From Candidatus Peribacteria bacterium (GTDB lineage: Bacteria > Patescibacteriota > Gracilibacteria > Peribacterales > Peribacteraceae): a stretch of DNA of 41,680 nucleotides. Position numbers and translations under genes: made by a program. Below, one piece after another: positions 3,049 to 41,274 of the stretch. The DNA lies in assembly GCA_018652265.1 (NCBI GenBank), contig JABICL010000044.1, forward strand, positions 1-41,680, read 5' to 3'. The notes below the pieces were generated by a model. That model saw only the letters and a list, made by a program, of their open reading frames with translations, was not told the origin of the DNA and did not search any database. Within the stretch, counting starts at the first letter, position 1; each line of letters starts with the position of its first letter.

Positions 3049-4995
3049 ATGCCTGTAATCAAAATGCAAAAAGTGGCCCTCATATCACACAAATCCATTA
3101 GTGAGGACCTGCTTGAATTTTTGCAAGATGAGGGAGTTATGGAGATTTCTCCAAATGAAGAAACTGTAGATATAGAGAGTCCTAAGTTTGCTTACGAAGA
3201 AGCAGAAGTTAAATTTGCCGTAGACAATTTGCTTCCATTTGCTTCAAAAGAAGAAATCAAAGCAGTAAAAAATCCAGGTACTACCGAAGAAATCACAAAA
3301 GGTGCTTTGCATACAGATTTTCGCGAAATTATAGATGAATGCAAGAAGCTAGAAGATGAGATGGGATCAGCGTCTAATGAGAAGCAACAACTAATTGCAC
3401 ACAGAAAGAAAATATCTCCATGGAAGGATTTGGATATGAATTTATCGGAAAGAGAAACTGACACATCTGTAGTTACATTTGGACAAGTAAGCCCAAATGT
3501 ATTTGAAGAATTTGAAAACAAGCTATCTACAGATCTTCCTAGAACAAATCTGTTAGAAGTAGGTGCAAGTGAAGGTCAATTACTAGTAGTCGCAATTATT
3601 TGGAAAGAAGACAAAAACACTTTCGATCAAGCAGCTGCACAAGTAGGTTGGACAGATATAGATTTGCCACAAGTAGATGAATCTCCTGCTAAAGAGATTG
3701 CTAGAGTAGATAATGAAATTAAAAGCCTAGATGCAAAAGAAGAAAAATTTCTAAGTAGAAAATCTGAGCTTGCAAAATCCATTCCAAATCTCGCCAGACT
3801 CGCTCAATACATGCACTGGATAGATATGAAGCAGTCTGTGAGATCAGAATTTTCAAAGACTGATCAAACTGTAATGCTTACTGGATGGATAGAAAGCAAA
3901 AAGATTGATGAGATAAATGAAAAACTAATCACTAACCACTGGCCACTAACCACTGGCCAGAATTCTCCAGCTATTGCTCTAATGCCCATAGAACCAAAAG
4001 CTGATGAAGAGCCTCCAATGCAAATAAAAAATAGAAATTGGATTGCACCTTTCGAAGCAGTTACTCGCCTATATGGATTACCACAAGGAAGTGAGATGGA
4101 TCCAACAAGACCTCTCATGCCTTTCTTTATCCTCTACTTCGGACTGTGTCTAACTGATGCAGGATATGGAGCAGTGCTTGCACTTATCATGGCTGGATTG
4201 ATACTTAAATTTAAATTAAAAAGACAGGAACAAAAACTTATATGGCTTCTATTTTACGCTGGAATAGCCACATTCTTGGTTTCTATTCCATTTGGAGGAT
4301 GGTTTGGTATGACACCAGATCAAGCTCCAGGTTGGATGACCAAGATTATAGAAGGTGACATTGTAAGATTTAAGGGGCAAGTATGGGACTTAAATAAAGA
4401 CGTAGACTTCTTCCGTAACCTTGCAATTTCACTTGGAGTGATTCAGATCCTCTTTGGAATATTTCTTTCTGGTTACTGGAAATTTATTCACGGAAAGAGA
4501 TTCGAAGCATTTGCCGCACATTTCACAGTACATATGTTTGTTGCATTGCTTGCACTGCAGATGCTGACCGAAATTCCATACCTAAACTATCCTACATATG
4601 CAGTTGGATTACTCTTTATATGGGGACAAGGATCAGGAAAATGGTTTATACGACCATTAATAGGGATTCTGGGAACAGTTAATTTCCTTATAGGAGTAAT
4701 GAGCAATACTCTTAGTTATCTAAGAATACTTGCACTCGGACTTGCTACAGGCGCACTTGCATTTGCAATTAATCAGATAGGCGCAGTTATTGCGGGGCTT
4801 CTACCAAGTATAATAGGAGTACCTGTATTTATAATGATTCTTTTCTTCGGTCACTTAACTTCGATTGCACTGAACTGCCTTGGCAGCTTCGTTCATTCAG
4901 GACGTCTACAGTTTATCGAATTCTTTGGACAATTCTTCCAAGGAGGAGGAAAAGAATTTGCACCATTTAAAAGATCAACCCGTTCTATTCTTTAA
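3049..4995 (+). CDS. ntpI: V-type ATPase subunit I (a subunit, ion channel)
   Basis: The membrane stator subunit that forms the ion half-channels facing the c ring. In this 648-aa protein residues 1 to about 345 are the soluble arm and about 350-640 hold the multi-pass membrane domain. The segment LSYLRILALGLATGALAFAI carries the conserved Arg (R559) that meets the c-ring carboxylate in this family. FFGHLTSIALNCLGSFVHS near the C-terminus is also family-typical. Oddity: residues about 293-304 are encoded by heptamers CACTAAC/CACTGGC (3923-3960), an apparent in-frame invasion of the soluble arm by a repeat otherwise seen between genes. Confidence 0.95.
   Translation: MPVIKMQKVALISHKSISEDLLEFLQDEGVMEISPNEETVDIESPKFAYEEAEVKFAVDNLLPFASKEEIKAVKNPGTTEEITKGALHTDFREIIDECKKLEDEMGSASNEKQQLIAHRKKISPWKDLDMNLSERETDTSVVTFGQVSPNVFEEFENKLSTDLPRTNLLEVGASEGQLLVVAIIWKEDKNTFDQAAAQVGWTDIDLPQVDESPAKEIARVDNEIKSLDAKEEKFLSRKSELAKSIPNLARLAQYMHWIDMKQSVRSEFSKTDQTVMLTGWIESKKIDEINEKLITNHWPLTTGQNSPAIALMPIEPKADEEPPMQIKNRNWIAPFEAVTRLYGLPQGSEMDPTRPLMPFFILYFGLCLTDAGYGAVLALIMAGLILKFKLKRQEQKLIWLLFYAGIATFLVSIPFGGWFGMTPDQAPGWMTKIIEGDIVRFKGQVWDLNKDVDFFRNLAISLGVIQILFGIFLSGYWKFIHGKRFEAFAAHFTVHMFVALLALQMLTEIPYLNYPTYAVGLLFIWGQGSGKWFIRPLIGILGTVNFLIGVMSNTLSYLRILALGLATGALAFAINQIGAVIAGLLPSIIGVPVFIMILFFGHLTSIALNCLGSFVHSGRLQFIEFFGQFFQGGGKEFAPFKRSTRSIL
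3923..3960. repeat. Heptamer array inside ntpI
   Basis: Units AACTAAT, CACTAAC, CACTGGC, CACTAAC, CACTGGC are in perfect 7-base phase within coding sequence and encode roughly LITNHWPLTTGQ. They are the same CACTAAY family as the intergenic arrays at 2152, 2577, 21945, 25576, 25642 and 34172. Confidence 0.85.
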
Positions 4996-5031
4996 TTTTA
5001 CTAATTACTTATTTATTTACCCCCTATAACT

Positions 5032-5556
5032 ATGGAACTCGAAGTACTACAAGCGGCAGCAGAAAGAACCGATTTACTCGGAATCTCGTTTGCTGTTCTA
5101 GGAGCAGCACTCGCATGTTTACTAGCTGGAATTGGCTCCTGTATCGGAGTATCGATGTCTGGACAAGCTGGAGCAGGTCTTCTTACAGAGAAGCCAAATG
5201 CTTTCGGTATCGTTACTGTTATCGAAGCTCTTCCAGGATCACAAGGAATTTACGGAATGGTTATCGCCTTCCTATTCCTTACATTCTTCAAGATTGGAAC
5301 TCCAGAACAACTTCCAATCGATTTCGCAACTGGACTCGCAATTTTGTTTGCATGTCTTCCTGTTGCTTTCACTTGCCTCTTCTCTGCTCCTTATCAGGGC
5401 AAAGTATGTGCAGCAGGTATGAAAATGATTGCAAAAGATGACAAGGCTGGTGGAAAAATCATTCCTATGGCCGCACTTGTAGAAACATATGCAATCCTTG
5501 GATTTCTAATCTCACTATTCTTGCTACTGAACATTGCAAGTGGACTTTCTGCATAA
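5032..5556 (+). CDS. ntpK: V-type ATPase subunit K (c-ring proteolipid)
   Basis: The rotor-ring proteolipid is 174 aa with four predicted membrane helices, a fused pair of hairpins as in Enterococcus hirae NtpK. The second hairpin has the ion-binding glutamate E151 in VETYAILGF. The first has PGSQGIYG (S70, Q71) and the loop-helix YQGKV has Q122; these match the Thr/Gln/Gln/Glu ligands of the E. hirae Na+ site, so Na+ coupling is a reasonable inference. A second acidic residue, E65, lies one helical turn before the P68-G69 motif. The gene follows ntpI with a 36-base gap and no clear ribosome-binding site. Confidence 0.95.
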   Translation: MELEVLQAAAERTDLLGISFAVLGAALACLLAGIGSCIGVSMSGQAGAGLLTEKPNAFGIVTVIEALPGSQGIYGMVIAFLFLTFFKIGTPEQLPIDFATGLAILFACLPVAFTCLFSAPYQGKVCAAGMKMIAKDDKAGGKIIPMAALVETYAILGFLISLFLLLNIASGLSA

Positions 5557-5577
5557 TAATTCATACACCTAAAAATT

Positions 5578-6066
5578 ATGGCTTTAGCTGACATTATTGC
5601 CTCCATAAAGGCACAGGCAAAAAACGATATCTCGAATATCAATGAACAAACAGAGGTAGAAAAAGCATCTATTACTCATAAAACAAATGATGAGATATCT
5701 GCACTTGAATCTGATATAAAGAAACAAACCGAGGCAAAGAAAACTCAAATGCAGAAGAAGGCACAAACTATGGTGGAAATGAACCATAGAAAAAAACTTC
5801 TAGAAGAAAAACGAAAATCTCTCGACTCTGTATACGATGAAGTTCTAGAAGAAGTAAACAAACTTCCAAAAGACAAACTCAAGAAGTTTGAAGATAGCCT
5901 GAAAAGTAAATTAAAAGGCATGGATGGTGACACCAAAGAATCAAAAGAAGGTGGGTTTGTATTTGTATCAAAAAATAGCGAAGAAGACTTCACCTTCCCC
6001 CATTTAGTTAATTCAGTTCTTCGACCTATGACAGAACTGGAAGTTTCTTCCAAGCTATTTGCATAA
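5578..6066 (+). CDS. ntpE: V-type ATPase subunit E (peripheral stalk)
   Basis: Peripheral-stalk subunit that dimerises with G/H and contacts subunit B. The 162-aa protein has a long charged coiled coil (about 1-100) and a short globular C-terminus, shorter than the usual ~190-200. The call rests on this architecture plus its place between K and C. The ATG follows a 21-base gap after ntpK; only two bases separate its stop from ntpC. Confidence 0.85.
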   Translation: MALADIIASIKAQAKNDISNINEQTEVEKASITHKTNDEISALESDIKKQTEAKKTQMQKKAQTMVEMNHRKKLLEEKRKSLDSVYDEVLEEVNKLPKDKLKKFEDSLKSKLKGMDGDTKESKEGGFVFVSKNSEEDFTFPHLVNSVLRPMTELEVSSKLFA

Positions 6067-6068
6067 TT

Positions 6069-6851
6069 ATGTTTGCTCCTCCACACACTCTTGGCCAACA
6101 CTTCGCTTACGCGTTAGGACGCCTAGGAACGCTAGAATCAGAACTTCTGGAACAGTCTGATGTAGACAGAATTCTTGGTGCCAAATCTGGAGAAGAAGCT
6201 GTAAAAATGCTTAGAGATATCAATTTCATAGTGGTACCAGATGAGACAAAAGACTTTCAGGAAATGATTGATGCCACCGCAAAAAGCATAAAAGAGAACG
6301 TAGAAAAAATGATTCCAGAAGATAAGAAATTTATATTCGATACTTTATGGATTGAATGGAATAGACCTTCTATCTCTTTCAATATTAAAAAGCAAAATGG
6401 ATTCGTAAGTGATATCGCATCGGAACCTGAGTCATCTATTGATTCAAGTTTTGATCCTGAATTTGATGAATCATTTAAATCTCCACGTGACGTCGATAAT
6501 GCAGTTGCACAAGCTTGTGACGCAGAAAGGCTAAGGCTTGCAAAAATGAGTAGTAGTAATGCCATACGCACATATGTATTACGCATGATAGATATAGAAG
6601 AAGAAAGACGAAGTTTCCGTGATGAAAATTCAGAATCAGAAAAAGATGCAATATCTTTCGAGCAAGAAGCAATTGAATCAGTAAGAAGTTCACTGGATGA
6701 AATGAGAACTATGTTCTTGGGTCCAGAACCAATATTTGCATACGCAGCAAGAGCAATGAGTCATCTTGCACTGCTTCGAGTACTTCTAACCGGAAAAGTA
6801 AATAGCTTAGAAATTCAAGAAATTAAATCTTTACTACCACCAATTCTTTAA
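6069..6851 (+). CDS. ntpC: V-type ATPase subunit C (central stalk socket)
   Basis: Subunit C couples the central stalk to the c ring. This copy has 260 aa, well short of the usual ~330. Recognisable parts are the N-terminal YALGRLGTLESELLEQSDVD and the C-terminal EPIFAYAARAMSHLALLRVL ending in NSLEIQEIKSLLPPIL. The reduced middle includes an acidic stretch around residues 120-140, so one internal repeat is probably eroded. It is tightly packed with ntpE (2 bases) and ntpF (5 bases). Confidence 0.85.
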   Translation: MFAPPHTLGQHFAYALGRLGTLESELLEQSDVDRILGAKSGEEAVKMLRDINFIVVPDETKDFQEMIDATAKSIKENVEKMIPEDKKFIFDTLWIEWNRPSISFNIKKQNGFVSDIASEPESSIDSSFDPEFDESFKSPRDVDNAVAQACDAERLRLAKMSSSNAIRTYVLRMIDIEEERRSFRDENSESEKDAISFEQEAIESVRSSLDEMRTMFLGPEPIFAYAARAMSHLALLRVLLTGKVNSLEIQEIKSLLPPIL

Positions 6852-6856
6852 TTTAA

Positions 6857-7183
6857 ATGAACTATCAAATCGCCATTATAGGCTCCAAAGAAGCAATAGA
6901 AGGATTCTCCCTTCTAGGGGTAAAAACTGTTCCAGCTCAAAATACAGAAGAAGCAGTAGAAAAAATAAGAGAAATGAAAAGATCTAGCGATGAGGTGTTT
7001 GCAATTATCTTCATCACAGAAGACCTCGCGAAAGATTTCACACAAGACGATGAGAAGTTTTTCGCGAAGGACCCACTTCCAGCAATTATTCCCCTTCCAT
7101 CACATCATGGTTCAACTGGCTACTCTATGGAGAGACTCTCTCGAATAGTAGAAAGAGCAGTTGGATCAGATATCTTAAAATAA
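6857..7183 (+). CDS. ntpG: V-type ATPase subunit F (central stalk)
   Basis: The 108-aa central-stalk subunit shows the NtpG/AtpF pattern: an N-terminal IAIIGSKEAIEGFSLLGVKT Rossmann-like segment, the FAIIFITEDLA strand, and the C-terminal HGSTGYSMERLSRIVERAVG helix that inserts along the D subunit. Length matches the family (~100-110). It lies between C and A as in standard V/A-ATPase operons. Confidence 0.93.
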   Translation: MNYQIAIIGSKEAIEGFSLLGVKTVPAQNTEEAVEKIREMKRSSDEVFAIIFITEDLAKDFTQDDEKFFAKDPLPAIIPLPSHHGSTGYSMERLSRIVERAVGSDILK

Positions 7184-7207
7184 TTAATTATTTACCCGAC
7201 AAAAAAT

Positions 7208-8968
7208 ATGTCACAATCAAAAATTACCAAAGTTGCAGGACCTCTAGTAGTTGCAAATGGAATGAAAGACGCAAAAATGTTCGAGGTTGTACGTGTCTCA
7301 AAAGAAAACCTTATAGGTGAGGTTATTGAACTACACGGCGATGATGCATCTATTCAGGTTTATGAAGATACTTCTGGAATAGGCCCTGGAGAACCCGTAG
7401 AAAAAACAGGACAAACTATGTCTGTTGAACTCGGACCAGGACTCTTACAGCAGATATATGATGGAATACAGAGACCTCTAGAGCTAATCGAGAAAAAGGC
7501 ACAGTCTTCTTATATCTCTCGTGGAATTGATGTTCCAGGACTTGATCACGACAAGAAATGGGAATTTAAGCCAGTAGCAAAAGCAGGTGACAAAGTAGTT
7601 GGAGGTGACATTCTAGGAGAAGTAGATGAAACCACTCTGATCACTCACAAAGTAATGGTTCCACCAGAAATGAAAGGAACTGTTAAAAGTATAGAAAGTG
7701 GCAACTTGACCATAGATGAAGTAGTAGCAGTAATAGAAACAGATAAAGGAGAGGAAAAAGTAACCATGCTTCAGAAATGGCCTATCCGTGTTGCTAGACC
7801 TTTTAACTCACAAAAAGATCCATCTGTACCCCTGGTAACAGGAACAAGAATTCTAGATACATTATTTCCAATAATGAAAGGTGGAGCCGGAGCTATTCCT
7901 GGTCCTTTTGGAGCTGGAAAAACTGTAACTCAGCAAACATTAGCTAAGTATTGTGATGCTCAAGTAATCATCTATATCGGATGTGGAGAACGTGGAAATG
8001 AAATGACAGATGTGCTTATGGAATTTCCTGAGCTTATCGATCCACACACAAATGAGCCTCTTATGAAAAGAACTTGCATGATCGCAAACACATCAAATAT
8101 GCCTGTTGCTGCTCGTGAAGCATCTGTATATACAGGAATTACAATTGCAGAGTACTACAGAGATATGGGATACAACGTTGCTCTCATGGCCGACTCTACT
8201 AGTCGTTGGGCAGAAGCTATGCGTGAGATGTCCGGACGTTTGGAAGAAATGCCTGGTGAAGAAGGATATCCAGCATACCTAGGATCACGTACAGCAGGAT
8301 TCTACGAAAGAGCAGGTTACGTTCAATGCTTAGGATCAGACAAAGAAAGAGAAGGATCACTTACAGTAGTAGGTGCAGTATCCCCTCCTGGTGGAGATTT
8401 TTCTGAACCAGTTACACAAAACACTCTACGTGTTACAAAAGTTTTCTGGGCACTAGACGCAAAACTTGCAAACAAACGTCACTTCCCATCTATTAACTGG
8501 TTACAGAGTTACTCTCTGTATCTAGAAAATATGAAAAAATATGCAAACAAAGAAATTGCAGAAGACTATATGGAAGTACGTGAAATGGCTTCTAGCCTAT
8601 TACAAGAAGAATCCAAGCTAGAAGAAATTGTAAGACTTGTAGGTGCTGATTCACTTTCTCCAAAAGAGCAGCTTGTGTTAGAAACTGCAAAAGCTATTAG
8701 AGAAGACTTCTTGTTCCAGAATGCTTTTGACAAAGTTGATGCATACACATCATTACAGAAACAATACAGAATTCTACGAATGATTACTCGCTTCTACAAA
8801 AAGTCTCAGGAAGTTGTAGATCAAGATGAATTTGATTTCGACAAACTAAGAAAAATCCCTGTAAGAGAAAAAATGGTAAAAGCTCATTTCATAGAAGAAA
8901 ATAAATGGGAAGAATTCGATGAGATAGAACGCGAAATAGAAGAACAAATTTCTGCACTAAAATCATAA
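7208..8968 (+). CDS. ntpA: V-type ATPase catalytic subunit A
   Basis: The ATP-hydrolysing or ATP-synthesising subunit, 586 aa, usual length. It has the P-loop GPFGAGKT at residues 232-239 (catalytic Lys 238), the general-base region GERGNEM, and the ADSTSRWAEAMRE motif. The extra A-subunit insertion (non-homologous region) is present around residues 115-195. The ATG at 7208 gives the canonical start (KITKVAGPLVVANGM). No Shine-Dalgarno is seen in the A-rich leader ACAAAAAAT. Confidence 0.98.
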   Translation: MSQSKITKVAGPLVVANGMKDAKMFEVVRVSKENLIGEVIELHGDDASIQVYEDTSGIGPGEPVEKTGQTMSVELGPGLLQQIYDGIQRPLELIEKKAQSSYISRGIDVPGLDHDKKWEFKPVAKAGDKVVGGDILGEVDETTLITHKVMVPPEMKGTVKSIESGNLTIDEVVAVIETDKGEEKVTMLQKWPIRVARPFNSQKDPSVPLVTGTRILDTLFPIMKGGAGAIPGPFGAGKTVTQQTLAKYCDAQVIIYIGCGERGNEMTDVLMEFPELIDPHTNEPLMKRTCMIANTSNMPVAAREASVYTGITIAEYYRDMGYNVALMADSTSRWAEAMREMSGRLEEMPGEEGYPAYLGSRTAGFYERAGYVQCLGSDKEREGSLTVVGAVSPPGGDFSEPVTQNTLRVTKVFWALDAKLANKRHFPSINWLQSYSLYLENMKKYANKEIAEDYMEVREMASSLLQEESKLEEIVRLVGADSLSPKEQLVLETAKAIREDFLFQNAFDKVDAYTSLQKQYRILRMITRFYKKSQEVVDQDEFDFDKLRKIPVREKMVKAHFIEENKWEEFDEIEREIEEQISALKS

Positions 8969-8971
8969 TCC

Positions 8972-9006
8972 TTAATTATTCATTGTTAATTATTAATTTT
9001 TCATTC
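8972..9006. repeat. Heptamer array TTAATTA/TTCATTS between ntpA and ntpB
   Basis: Units TTAATTA, TTCATTG, TTAATTA, TTAATTT, TTCATTC run in strict 7-base phase through nearly the whole 45-base gap between the two ATPase genes. Confidence 0.75.
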
Positions 9007-9013
9007 AAACATT

Positions 9014-10399
9014 ATGTCAACAACAGCTTATAAAACAGTTAGAGAGATCACCGGACCACTAGTAATGGTCGAAGAAGTCGAAGGTGTTACTTACGAAGAA
9101 CTCGTAGAAATAGAAACTCCAGATGGAAAAACCAGGCTTGGTAAAGTATTGGAGGCACGTGAAGGAGTTGCTGTTGTTCAGCTTTTCGAAACCACACAAG
9201 GAGTAGGAACCGAAGGTACAAAAGCTAGATTCCTTGGAAAGACTTTTGAGCTTGGAGTAACAGAAGATCTCCTTGGAAGAGTATTCTCTGGATCAGGAAA
9301 GCCAATTGATGGCGGACCAGAACCAATTGCAGAAGCCAAAAAAGATATTAACGGTGCTCCTATTAATCCGTTCTCACGATCTTTTCCATCTGACTTTATT
9401 CAAACAGGTGTTTCTACAATCGATGTAATGAACACGCTTGTACGTGGACAGAAACTTCCTATCTTCTCTGGTGCAGGACTTCCACATAATAAGCTTGCTG
9501 CACAGATCGCTAGACAAGCAAAAGTAAGAGATGATTCTGGAGAAGGAAAATTTGCTGTTATCTTTGCTGCAATGGGAGTTACCTTCGAAGAAGCACAATA
9601 CTTCCGAAACGAATTCGAAAAAACAGGCGCACTAGAGAGAGCTGTACTATTCCTAAATACAGCAGCAGATCCTGTAGTTGAACGTATTGCTACTCCTCGT
9701 CTAGCTCTTACCGCTGCAGAATACCTCGCATACGAAAAAGATTATCACGTAACAGTTATTCTTACTGACCTTACAAACTATTGCGAAGCACTACGTGAAG
9801 TATCGGCTGCACGAAAAGAAGTTCCTGGTCGTCGTGGTTTCCCTGGATATATGTACACGGACCTTTCTACAATTTACGAAAGAGCCGGACAGATCAAAGG
9901 CAAGAATGGATCAATCACACAGATTCCTATTCTTACTATGCCAGAAGATGACAAAACTCACCCAATTCCAGATCTTACTGGATACATTACAGAGGGCCAG
10001 TTTGTTCTCTCTAGAGAACTACATGCAAAAGGAATTTACCCACCTGTAGATGTACTCCCTTCATTGTCACGATTGCAGCAGACTCTATCTGGAGAAATGA
10101 CACGAGATGATCGTAAAAATGTTATGGCACAGCTATTTGCCGCTTACTCTAGAGGAAAAGATGTACGTGAGCTTGCTGTTATTCTTGGTGAATCTGCTCT
10201 TAGTGAGACTGATCTCAAATTCATGAAATTTGCAGAAGGCTTTGAAGATAAGTTTGTAAGACAATCAGAAAGTGAAGATCGTTCAATCGAAGAATCTCTT
10301 ACAATTGGATGGGAATTACTTTCTATGCTTCCTAGAGAAGAACTTAAGCGTGTTAAAGATGAAGAGATAGAGAAATATATGCCAACGCCTAAGGCGTAA
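9014..10399 (+). CDS. ntpB: V-type ATPase regulatory subunit B
   Basis: The non-catalytic nucleotide-binding subunit, 461 aa, alternates with A in the hexamer. The degenerate loop [18 protein letters not shown] replaces a true P-loop, as expected for [18 protein letters not shown] and the [21 protein letters not shown] region are strongly family-like. It follows ntpA with the same orientation; the gene ends at the start of an AT-rich inverted heptamer region that separates it from ntpD. Confidence 0.98.
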
Positions 10400-10520
10400 T
10401 TTTAAATTACCAATTTTAAATTTTAAAATAATTTTAAATGACTCAATGTTCAATTAAAAAAACGGCAGCAAGAATTGTTCATTGTTTTAAAATTTATAAT
10501 TTAAAATTTAAAATTTTCTC
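10398..10520. repeat. AT-rich inverted heptamer arrays between ntpB and ntpD
   Basis: The left arm reads AATTTTA, AATTACC, AATTTTA, AATTTTA; the right arm reads AATTGTT, CATTGTT, TTAAAAT, TTATAAT, TTAAAAT, TTAAAAT. Both are in 7-base phase and are roughly inverted around a GC-richer centre near 10460-10475. A folded transcript could lower expression of ntpD or act as a processing site. Confidence 0.7.
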
Positions 10521-10544
10521 CGACCAATTAAACAACCTAAAAAT

Positions 10545-11171
10545 ATGGCAATATTAAACGTTAATCCAACCAGAATGGCATTACTAGATCTCAAGAAGAG
10601 AGTGAAGTCTGCAGAGCGCGGACACAAACTCTTGAAAGATAAACAGGACGGTCTAATGAAGCACTTCATGGAAATAGTTAGAGATGCCAAGAAACTCAGA
10701 GAAGAAGTAGAAGAAATGCTTGGTGATGCTTTTAAAAAGTTTCTTATAGCTTCTGCTTGGATGAAAGAAGCTGATCTCCGAAATGCTCTCTCTAGTCCAC
10801 AGGCAAAATTAGCACTCTCTGTGAAGACAAAGAATGTCATGAGTGTACGCATCCCTTTCTTTGAATTAGAAAAAGAGGGAGAGATAAAAACTTACGGTTA
10901 TGCAGGTACAAATGCACTCCTAGACGAAGCTATAGATGCACTAAATGAGGCCTTTGAGATCCTCATACAGCTTGCTCAGATAGAAAAGCAGGCAGAAGCA
11001 CTCGCTATAGAGCTAGAAACTACCAGGCGCCGTGTAAACGCCTTGGAGCACAAGATGATTCCAGATCTAAAAGACACAGTTAAATACATTCGCCTAAAAC
11101 TAGATGAAGGAGAGAGGTCCGCAATTATTGGTACTATGAAAGTAAAAGCTCAGATTGAGGCTGCTGCTTAA
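10545..11171 (+). CDS. ntpD: V-type ATPase subunit D (central shaft)
   Basis: The central rotor shaft, 208 aa, with the family start NVNPTRMALLDLKKRVKSAERGHKLLKDKQDGLM and C-terminal long helix RRRVNALEHKMIPDLKDTVKYI. Usual length. It is the last gene of the ATPase operon, separated from ntpB by 145 bases of inverted heptamer repeats rather than by a short spacer. Its 3' end overlaps by 4 bases the convergent hypothetical gene at 11168-11503. Confidence 0.97.
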   Translation: MAILNVNPTRMALLDLKKRVKSAERGHKLLKDKQDGLMKHFMEIVRDAKKLREEVEEMLGDAFKKFLIASAWMKEADLRNALSSPQAKLALSVKTKNVMSVRIPFFELEKEGEIKTYGYAGTNALLDEAIDALNEAFEILIQLAQIEKQAEALAIELETTRRRVNALEHKMIPDLKDTVKYIRLKLDEGERSAIIGTMKVKAQIEAAA

Positions 11172-38410: not shown

Positions 38411-39034
38411 ATGTTGATATGGATACAACAAAATGCGATTCTGAAGGATATGATTTCTTCAAAAATCCTAAAAAATCTATATCAAGGAAATGGTAAATCT
38501 ATGAAAGAAATATCAGATCATTTAGACTGTTCAGTTCATAAAGTTCAGTACTGGATGAATGAACATAAAATAAAAAGAAGATCAATAAGTGATGCAATAT
38601 ATCTGCAAAATCATCCAAATGGGGATCCATTTAAATTTGTTCCACCAAAGACAAAAGAAGACCATTACTTATTCGGTCTAGGATTAGGATTGTATTGGGG
38701 AGAGGGAACAAAATCCTGCAAATATGCGATAAGACTAGGCAATACTGATCCTGATCTAATAATTAAGTTTATGGAATTTTTAATTAGATTTTTTGATGTA
38801 AAAAAGTCAGATTTCAAATTCGGACTACAAATATTCACTGATCTAGATGTAAACAAAGTTCTGAATTTTTGGACCAAAAAACTAGATGTCCACCATAATC
38901 AATTTGGTAAACCAATAATCACAATCTCCGGATCAATAGGAACTTATCGTAAGAAAAGTGAGCACGGAGTGGTCACTGTGCACTATAATAATGTCAAGCT
39001 CAGAAAGCTCTTTGATAAATTTTTGCCGCCGTAG
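38411..39034 (+). CDS. LAGLIDADG-like / HTH protein ending inside tRNA-Thr
   Basis: A 207-aa basic protein. Residues about 15-60 resemble a helix-turn-helix (MKEISDHLDCSVHKVQYWMN) and the rest a LAGLIDADG-type fold: the LFGLGLGLYWGEGT segment near residue 90 resembles the dodecapeptide motif with an acidic residue (E). I infer a homing-endonuclease relative or a regulator derived from one. The start could be ATG 38411 or a later ATG at 38450. The last codons (CCG CCG TAG) are the first bases of tRNA-Thr, an overlap of 10 bases. Confidence 0.6.
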   Translation: MLIWIQQNAILKDMISSKILKNLYQGNGKSMKEISDHLDCSVHKVQYWMNEHKIKRRSISDAIYLQNHPNGDPFKFVPPKTKEDHYLFGLGLGLYWGEGTKSCKYAIRLGNTDPDLIIKFMEFLIRFFDVKKSDFKFGLQIFTDLDVNKVLNFWTKKLDVHHNQFGKPIITISGSIGTYRKKSEHGVVTVHYNNVKLRKLFDKFLPP

Positions 39035-39099
39035 CTCAGGGGTAGAGCATCGCTATGGTAAAGCGGGGGTCACGAGTTCAATTCTCGTCGGCGGCTCCA
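39025..39099 (+). tRNA. tRNA-Thr (GGT)
   Basis: A 75-nt cloverleaf with acceptor GCCGCCG/CGGCGGC, D stem GCTC/GAGC, anticodon stem TCGCT with loop ATGGTAA (anticodon GGT), and T arm ACGAG-TTCAATT-CTCGT; CCA is encoded. The 3' 18 bases recur at 39172-39189. Confidence 0.95.
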
Positions 39100-39189
39100 T
39101 CCGTCTTCATTCTAAAGAACTTCGCCGTGATTTATGTAGTCACGGCGTAGCTGCAAGCGAAGCCGGACAAATCTCGTCGGCGGCTCCAT
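39083..39189 (+). repeat. 18-bp direct repeat of the tRNA-Thr 3' end around a 71-bp hairpin element
   Basis: TCTCGTCGGCGGCTCCAT occurs at 39083-39100 (the tRNA 3' end) and again at 39172-39189. The 71 bases between hold a long hairpin, CTTCGCCGTGA with TCACGGCG and AGCGAAG. This is the layout of an insertion at a tRNA 3' end with an attachment-like duplication, but no integrase is present. Confidence 0.85.
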
Positions 39190-39909: not shown

Positions 39910-40987
39910 GTGGAAGAAATTCTAAATCAAATCCGGGAACTGCAGTCCGCCATAAACACGGGGAAGGACTCTCTTTGATGCCAGGGGGATACCAAATCAA
40001 ATAAAAGAACTAGAAGAAGAATCTCAGAAGGATGGTTTTTGGAATGATCAGAAGAAAGCAAATCAAACATTTGCAAAGTTAAAAGCACTTAAATCTCAGT
40101 GGGAGCCTATTTGTGAAGTTGCAAGTGATGCTCAAGCTCTACTTGATTTATCTGATGCAGCTTCAGAGAGTGATGAAGCAGAATTTAAATCTGATCTAGA
40201 AAAACTAGAAGAAAAATGGAAAGCAGTAGAACACGTGCTTCTTTTTTCTGGATCACATGACGCAGCAAATTGCTATCTAACAGTAAGCTCAGGAGCAGGA
40301 GGAACAGACGCACAAGATTGGGCAGAAATGCTTGTGCGCATGTATATGCGCTACTGCGAAAGAAAGAAATGGAAATTTAGCATTCTAGAAAAAACACACG
40401 GACAAGAGGCAGGAATAAAATCTGCAACAGTGTACATAGAAGGAGAACTCTCATATGGATTCTTAAAAGCAGAGCGTGGAACACATAGGCTAGTAAGACT
40501 CTCGCCATTTAATTCAAAAAATTTAAGGCAAACATCTTTTGCATTAGTAGAAGTTCTTCCAGAAATAGATAGCGACGATGAAATAGAAATAAATTCTGCA
40601 GATATAAGAATAGATACATTCAGATCAAGTGGTGCAGGAGGACAACATGTGAATGTAACTGACTCTGCGGTTCGCATTACTCACTCTCCCACAGGAATAG
40701 TAGTTGCATGCCAGAATGAAAGATCTCAATTACAAAACAAAGAGCAATGTATGAAAATGCTCAAATCAAAACTTTTACAAAAAAGAGAGGAAGAAGAAAT
40801 GAAAAAAATAGAAGGATTAAAAGGGGCAACAAAAAGTGCCGACTTCGGTCAGCAAATAAGAAGTTATGTATTGCATCCCTACAAGATGGTTAAAGACCTT
40901 CGTACGGAACTAGAAAATAATAATCCAGACGAAGTACTAGATGGAGATCTAGATGAATTTGTATTTGCAGAACTTAGAAGAAAATAA
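39910..40987 (+). CDS. prfB: Peptide chain release factor 2, with programmed +1 frameshift
   Basis: RF2 terminates at UGA and UAA. The frame opens at GTG 39910 and reaches CTT-TGA at 39973-39978 (UGA is codon 23). A +1 shift at CTT continues as GAT GCC from 39977 to TAA at 40987, giving 358 aa. AAGGA lies four bases before the CTT, as in known RF2 slip sites. After the shift come DGFWND, the SPF specificity motif (LSPFNSKNLRQTSFA) and the catalytic GGQ (SSGAGGQHVN). The shift lets RF2 control its own level by how fast UGA is read. This also shows that UGA is a stop codon here. Confidence 0.97.
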
Positions 40988-40990
40988 AAT

Positions 40991-41025
40991 AAAAAAGCTC
41001 TCCTCGTAACAAGTAGAGCTTTTTT
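40991..41025. terminator. Bidirectional rho-independent terminator
   Basis: AAAAAAGCTCT (40991-41001) pairs with AGAGCTTTTTT (41015-41025) across a 13-base loop. An A-run and a T-run on opposite sides let it serve both prfB and the convergent histone gene. Confidence 0.85.
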
Positions 41026-41041
41026 AATCCAAGAGAAAATC

Positions 41042-41212
41042 TTAAAGATCGTCTCCACGTACAGTCTTACGACCGTTTGCTTTTGCACGCTTTGCAGCTT
41101 TCTTTGCGAGCTCTTCTACTTCTCCACTTAGGGCATCTGCAAAATCGCCGGAAGTCATAAGGTTCATTCCTTTAAGAAGTTCTTTTACCTTGGAGGCAAC
41201 TACTAGACTCAT
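41042..41212 (-). CDS. Bacterial histone-fold protein
   Basis: ATG at 41212 to TAA at 41042 encodes 56 aa: MSLVVASKVKELLKGMNLMT, then SGDFADALSGEVEELAKKAA and KRAKANGRKTVRGDDL. The pattern is a minimal histone fold: short helix 1, loop, long amphipathic helix 2 with regular Ala/Leu/Val, and ANGRKTVRGDDL, which matches the loop 2 motif (A-x-GRKTI/V-x-x-x-DL) of archaeal histones and of the Bdellovibrio Bd0055-type bacterial histones. Basic residues (about 10 Lys/Arg) suit DNA binding as a dimer. A promoter with -10 TACAAT (41247-41252) and -35 TTGCTT (41269-41274) fits the minus strand. It is convergent with prfB across a terminator. Confidence 0.85.
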   Translation of the reverse strand: MSLVVASKVKELLKGMNLMTSGDFADALSGEVEELAKKAAKRAKANGRKTVRGDDL

Positions 41213-41246
41213 GAGTATTTGGGGAAGAAAATTAGAAACTGCGCTT

Positions 41247-41274
41247 ATTGTAAATATAAGGCGTAAGAAAGCAA
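41247..41274 (-). promoter_or_regulatory. Predicted promoter of the histone gene
   Basis: Minus strand -35 TTGCTT (41269-41274), 16 bases, -10 TACAAT (41247-41252), giving a leader of about 28 bases. No Shine-Dalgarno is seen before the ATG. Confidence 0.45.

Follow-up and report, generated by a model that had tools for sequence, protein, structure and literature searches.

The 41,680-nucleotide contig JABICL010000044.1 of a Candidatus Peribacteria genome (GCA_018652265.1), hereafter the window, carries on its reverse strand a 56-amino-acid open reading frame lying tail-to-tail with prfB (Table 1). A first-pass annotation of the sequence had proposed a histone-fold gene here from a signature, ANGRKTVRGDDL, which is present in the translated frame with its coordinates exact. 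The protein is the sole histone match in its own genome, has no N-terminal tail and bears a net charge of +3 (pI 9.5; family range 8.1–9.7). It had also been described as minimal in size; it is indeed short, but 56 residues is an ordinary length for alpha-3 histones.

Table 1. Coordinates of the histone locus in the window, and of doublet loci in relatives
Feature	Position	Strand	Details
FtF (face-to-face) alpha-3 histone gene (most likely subtype)	41042..41212	-	56-aa ORF, ATG to TAA; translation MSLVVASKVKELLKGMNLMTSGDFADALSGEVEELAKKAAKRAKANGRKTVRGDDL
Bidirectional intrinsic terminator, histone/prfB	40991..41025	.	AAAAAAGCTCT...AGAGCTTTTTT; T runs on both strands
Likely promoter	41247..41274	-	TTGCTT 41274-41269, 16 nt, TACAAT 41252-41247
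Pyrimidine-rich leader without Shine-Dalgarno sequence	41213..41242	-	70% pyrimidine
prfB	39910..40987	+	tail-to-tail with histone; CTT TGA +1 frameshift 39973-39978
Doublets, two FtF-like folds, 119-121 aa	L009:1312, L020:1306, L022:1501, L040:132, L037:4001		replace singlet in some Peribacteria

The stop codons of the two genes flank a hairpin (minimum free energy -16.6 kcal/mol; fold z -4.12), which agrees with the convergent terminator claimed at first pass; a pattern scan of terminators did not list it, probably because its loop exceeds the 8 nt allowed. Since histone and prfB converge on this shared terminator, their neighbourhood is a conserved location and not an operon. The prfB product has the PCRF and RF-1 domains (PF03462, PF00472), and its CTTTGA (codons 22–23) is the usual +1 frameshift site near the start. 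Across the family, 20 distinct loci have prfB convergent with the adjoining histone gene, 61–715 bases away, and three more have it nearby in the same orientation.

Comparison among relatives supports the promoter that had been assigned to the frame: of 35 upstream regions from the family, 33 have a TTG(C) box and a TA(G/C/A)AAT box 35–41 nt 5' of the ATG; a consensus scan, which alone gave no support (7 found, 7.3 expected by chance), was dropped as evidence. The last 30 nt of the leader average 82% C+T across the family, whereas 28 genes of the window average 56% (sd 12); this richness in pyrimidines may mark an alternative mode of ribosome recruitment. CCCC often stands about 10 nt 5' of the ATG in the 35 family leaders, whereas the HLp-like histones of other Patescibacteria have a normal AAAGGAGGTG.

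Several features of the window and genome were noted alongside. None of the 28 window genes has a Shine-Dalgarno (SD) motif within 20 nt 5' of its start, where G makes up only 7% of bases. The family 16S rRNA (G000:C34:76331-77849; loci L092, L093) has GGATGGAACA at its end where GGTTGGATCA is usual, and the anti-SD core that comes after it differs by genome (CCTCC here; CTTCC, TCTCC or TTTCC elsewhere). Together these observations look like translation that does not depend on SD, with the anti-SD in decay. A tRNA-Thr gene (39025-39099) has its last 17 bases, tctcgtcggcggctcca at 39083-39099, repeated 90 bases downstream at 39173-39189, resembling the attachment-site duplication of an integrated element; an ORF just upstream (38411-39034) appears by eye to be homing-endonuclease-like. 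The V/A-type ATP synthase cluster at positions 3049-11171 of this Candidate Phyla Radiation (CPR) genome looks complete by eye.

Histone fold and subtype

Profile searches recover the protein just under curated thresholds: Pfam CBFD_NFYB_HMF (PF00808) matches with an E value of 4e-4 at 21.0 bits (cut-off 21.4) and the NCBIfam archaea_histone model scores 22.9 bits (cut-off 50). Six other family singlets that we tested likewise fall under the Pfam cut-off. Annotation by cut-off would therefore leave the gene unnamed, in keeping with the earlier expectation that so short a gene, which is also divergent, may be skipped. Among PDB sequences the best matches are HTkC (9F2C; 1.8e-8), HLp (9QT0; 4.6e-8) and Bd0055/HBb (about 6e-8; phmmer 5.6e-8). 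An AlphaFold2 monomer predicted from an alignment of 40 sequences (mean pLDDT 94.2) places helices at residues 6–14 and 22–45 and ends in an HHH stub at 53–55. Foldseek ranks HLp first (TM 0.97, rmsd 0.6 A), followed by HBb and HTkC at 0.88–0.93, whereas the nucleosomal archaeal histones HMfA and HMfB reach only 0.63–0.67. Sequence and model together confirm a histone-fold gene in a CPR bacterium, of a family of Ca. Peribacteria/Peregrinibacteria.

FtF histones have been defined by a torus-shaped tetramer and by profile residues R48, N52, R54, T56 and D61, equivalent to R41, N45, R47, T49 and D54 of D4GZE0; bacterial dimers of the Bd0055 type are without profile residues R48 and N52 (Schwab et al. 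2024, PMC11390915). The window protein carries R42, N46, R48, T50 and D55 at spacing identical to the published profile, and all five are invariant in 32 of 32 family singlet rows and 40 of 40 rows of a wider alignment. It has the RxTxxxxD loop; its predicted alpha-2 is short and its one-turn alpha-3 spans the 3–4 residues expected of FtF histones, as opposed to the long alpha-2, 10-residue alpha-3 and four-helix-bundle tetramer of nucleosomal histones. The fold in the predicted model and the FtF residues in the sequence thus find direct support here. A DUF1931 pseudodimer was considered and rejected, as that class has two fused folds and ours one (PF09123, 15.7 bits against 21.8).

The first-pass annotation had placed the protein with the Bd0055 type. 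A histone of that type would act as a dimer, bending or coating the DNA. Length, fold and the GRKTV loop are indeed common to both, and the phmmer value and a TM of 0.92 reflect that likeness, but Bd0055 has S and D in place of the family-invariant R42 and N46, and M in place of R52, and the two profile residues reported missing from bacterial dimers are exactly the equivalents of R42 and N46 (PMC11390915). HTkC and HLp score slightly better than Bd0055 by sequence and HLp clearly better by structure. A Bd0055-type dimer is accordingly unlikely, and on residues and predicted structure the protein is most likely an FtF alpha-3 histone. In the tree, which is under-resolved at 56 columns, HBb has a long branch.

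Predicted tetramer and role in the nucleoid

HLp of Leptospira, a genus that has no HU, forms a tetramer around which about 60 bp of DNA wrap, with R49, N53 and R55 at its interface; in simulation, 52% of the energy of binding comes from R59, K21, K15, S14 and K17 (Hu et al. 2025, PMC12701072). The interface residues map to R42, N46 and R48 and the DNA contacts to R52, K14, K8, S7 and K10, and the window protein retains all of them. Within the family K10 never varies, and the other four contacts are kept in 20–30 of 32 rows. Retention of R42 and N46 together with the HLp DNA residues supports the histone call and leaves the Bd0055 type unsupported.

By homology, two chains would dimerize through crossed alpha-2 helices, and two dimers would join at both ends into a closed, ring-shaped tetramer, R42 and N46 of one dimer presumably contacting the other dimer's R48 and C-terminus. 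A positive belt of S7, K8, K10, K14 and R52 would then bind DNA without sequence preference and wrap about 60 bp of it, and the histone, transcribed from a promoter of its own, would serve as a chromosomal nucleoid protein alongside HU. We give this reading as a whole, an FtF histone whose ring-like tetramer wraps about 60 bp beside HU, a probability of roughly 80%. Oligomeric state, wrapping and abundance are inferred from HLp, and the wrapping model derives from that one protein, about 45% identical to ours.

Within this comparison, the loop-2 DNA contact K54 of HLp corresponds to G47, and K8, K14, K49 and R52 vary within the family, so DNA affinity may also vary. N46 is not strictly needed for the tetramer interface, because the solved tetramer of HTkC has E there. 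The genome encodes HU as well (G000:C34), so a histone kept to make up for lost HU was rejected as an explanation; as in Bdellovibrio, the histone probably shares the nucleoid with HU and does not run it alone. It may also be dispensable, since one near-complete genome (G028, 98%) is without the gene while four further genomes of that genus carry it.

Such a histone-fold protein could instead have a main job other than genome-wide packing, as a local regulator or complex subunit in the manner of eukaryotic TAFs. With HU present, packing does not depend on the histone alone; yet the main HLp DNA-contact positions and a net positive charge are kept, and the gene has its own promoter and terminator with no partner gene in an operon. 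We regard such a role as improbable and retain the FtF nucleoid protein as our reading.

Distribution, doublets and origin

An initial sample of the same family held the histone, stop-free, in 31 of 35 relatives. In a class-wide sample, 70 of 353 genomes matched, comprising 68 of 74 from the family itself (own genome included) and two of 279 outside it (family f5). Loci L031 and L033 encode proteins identical to those of family loci L005 and L017. The zero internal stops across the 68 genomes provide the check by conservation in relatives that the annotation had called for, and a frame kept open so widely goes far beyond what chance would give. A spurious frame or an archaeal contaminant from binning, in favour of which one could cite the short frame and the close relatives (65% identity) held by Diapherotrites archaea, is ruled out by this stop-free presence across the family and by synteny with prfB in 20 of its genomes. 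In an even sample of the phylum, 27 of 380 genomes matched; the matches from other classes (families f43, f73 and f36) are of a different FtF type, NKRSTVKPQD, and group with Leptospira HLp (support 91/93).

Tandem fusions of two folds, 119 aa long, occur in three family genomes and in one record labelled Uhrbacteria (L009, L020, L022 and L040). Because the four form one clade (99/93), a single fusion event within the family is likely, and the Uhrbacteria-titled L040 would reflect either transfer or mis-binning. The first half of these doublets has lost the R42 equivalent and kept N46. In the best AlphaFold2 model of L040 (pLDDT 91.6; the four other models were poor) the two halves pair as a histone dimer within one chain, with the Methanopyrus doublet 1F1E as its top PDB match. 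Family f5 has another doublet (L037/L023).

Phylogenetic analysis used 97 rows and 56 columns. The tree separates Peribacteria plus archaea from other bacteria plus HLp (61% bootstrap, 98% SH-aLRT), which places the family's protein on the archaeal side with Diapherotrites and others. An AU test rejects neither a single Peribacteria clade (p 0.46) nor a clade of Peribacteria and other CPR (p 0.125), so independent origins of the two Patescibacteria FtF groups are suggested rather than shown, and acquisition from DPANN archaea is no more than a reasonable conjecture. A fuller account, which we hold tentatively and at somewhat under even odds, would make the FtF histone a core component of chromatin in one Peribacteria family, acquired from DPANN archaea independently of the Leptospira-like FtF histones elsewhere in Patescibacteria, replaced on one branch by the 119-aa doublet, and acting as a ring with HU in a 1-Mb genome.

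The statement that very few such genes have been described proved too strong: 5823 prokaryotic histones are catalogued, 25% of them bacterial, with CPR not named among the lineages in that text (PMC11390915). FtF histones are said to be those that occur in archaea and bacteria alike, the bacterial ones having been described mainly from Spirochaetota, Planctomycetota, Bdellovibrionota and Myxococcota. Our literature search on histones in Peribacteria, CPR or Patescibacteria found nothing relevant, and the catalogue supplements may hold unnamed Patescibacteria entries; this is a known kind of protein in an apparently undescribed lineage. That most members of a CPR family have it suggests histone DNA wrapping in ultra-small bacteria, and would mean that probable DNA-wrapping histones reach into the CPR. 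Structural work could draw on the family's dozens of naturally tailless variants, which also bear on whether bacterial histones came from archaea. Surveys by the usual profile cut-offs undercount such genes, because the proteins fall just below them.

Comparison with known histones

HLp of Leptospira perolatii (PDB 9QT0-9QT2; PMC12701072), the best fold match, shares its MTSGD loop 1, the R/N/R tetramer residues and the five main DNA residues; it differs in having an N-terminal tail and a host without HU, where the window protein is tailless and its genome has HU. HTkC of Thermococcus kodakarensis (PMC11390915), the best PDB sequence match, is also short and tailless and keeps the R42 equivalent and the GRKT loop, but it is archaeal, has E at the N46 position and is expressed less than the nucleosomal HTkA beside it. 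HBb/Bd0055 of Bdellovibrio bacteriovorus (PDB 8FVX, 8CMP) has a similar short fold, RKTV loop and helix-1 S-K-x-K, yet is a strict dimer with the three substitutions noted above. The closest sequences outside the family, at up to 66% identity, are the FtF histones of Diapherotrites (DPANN), which differ in their archaeal hosts and in a loop 1 that is mostly CNTAGD where ours reads MMSAGD.
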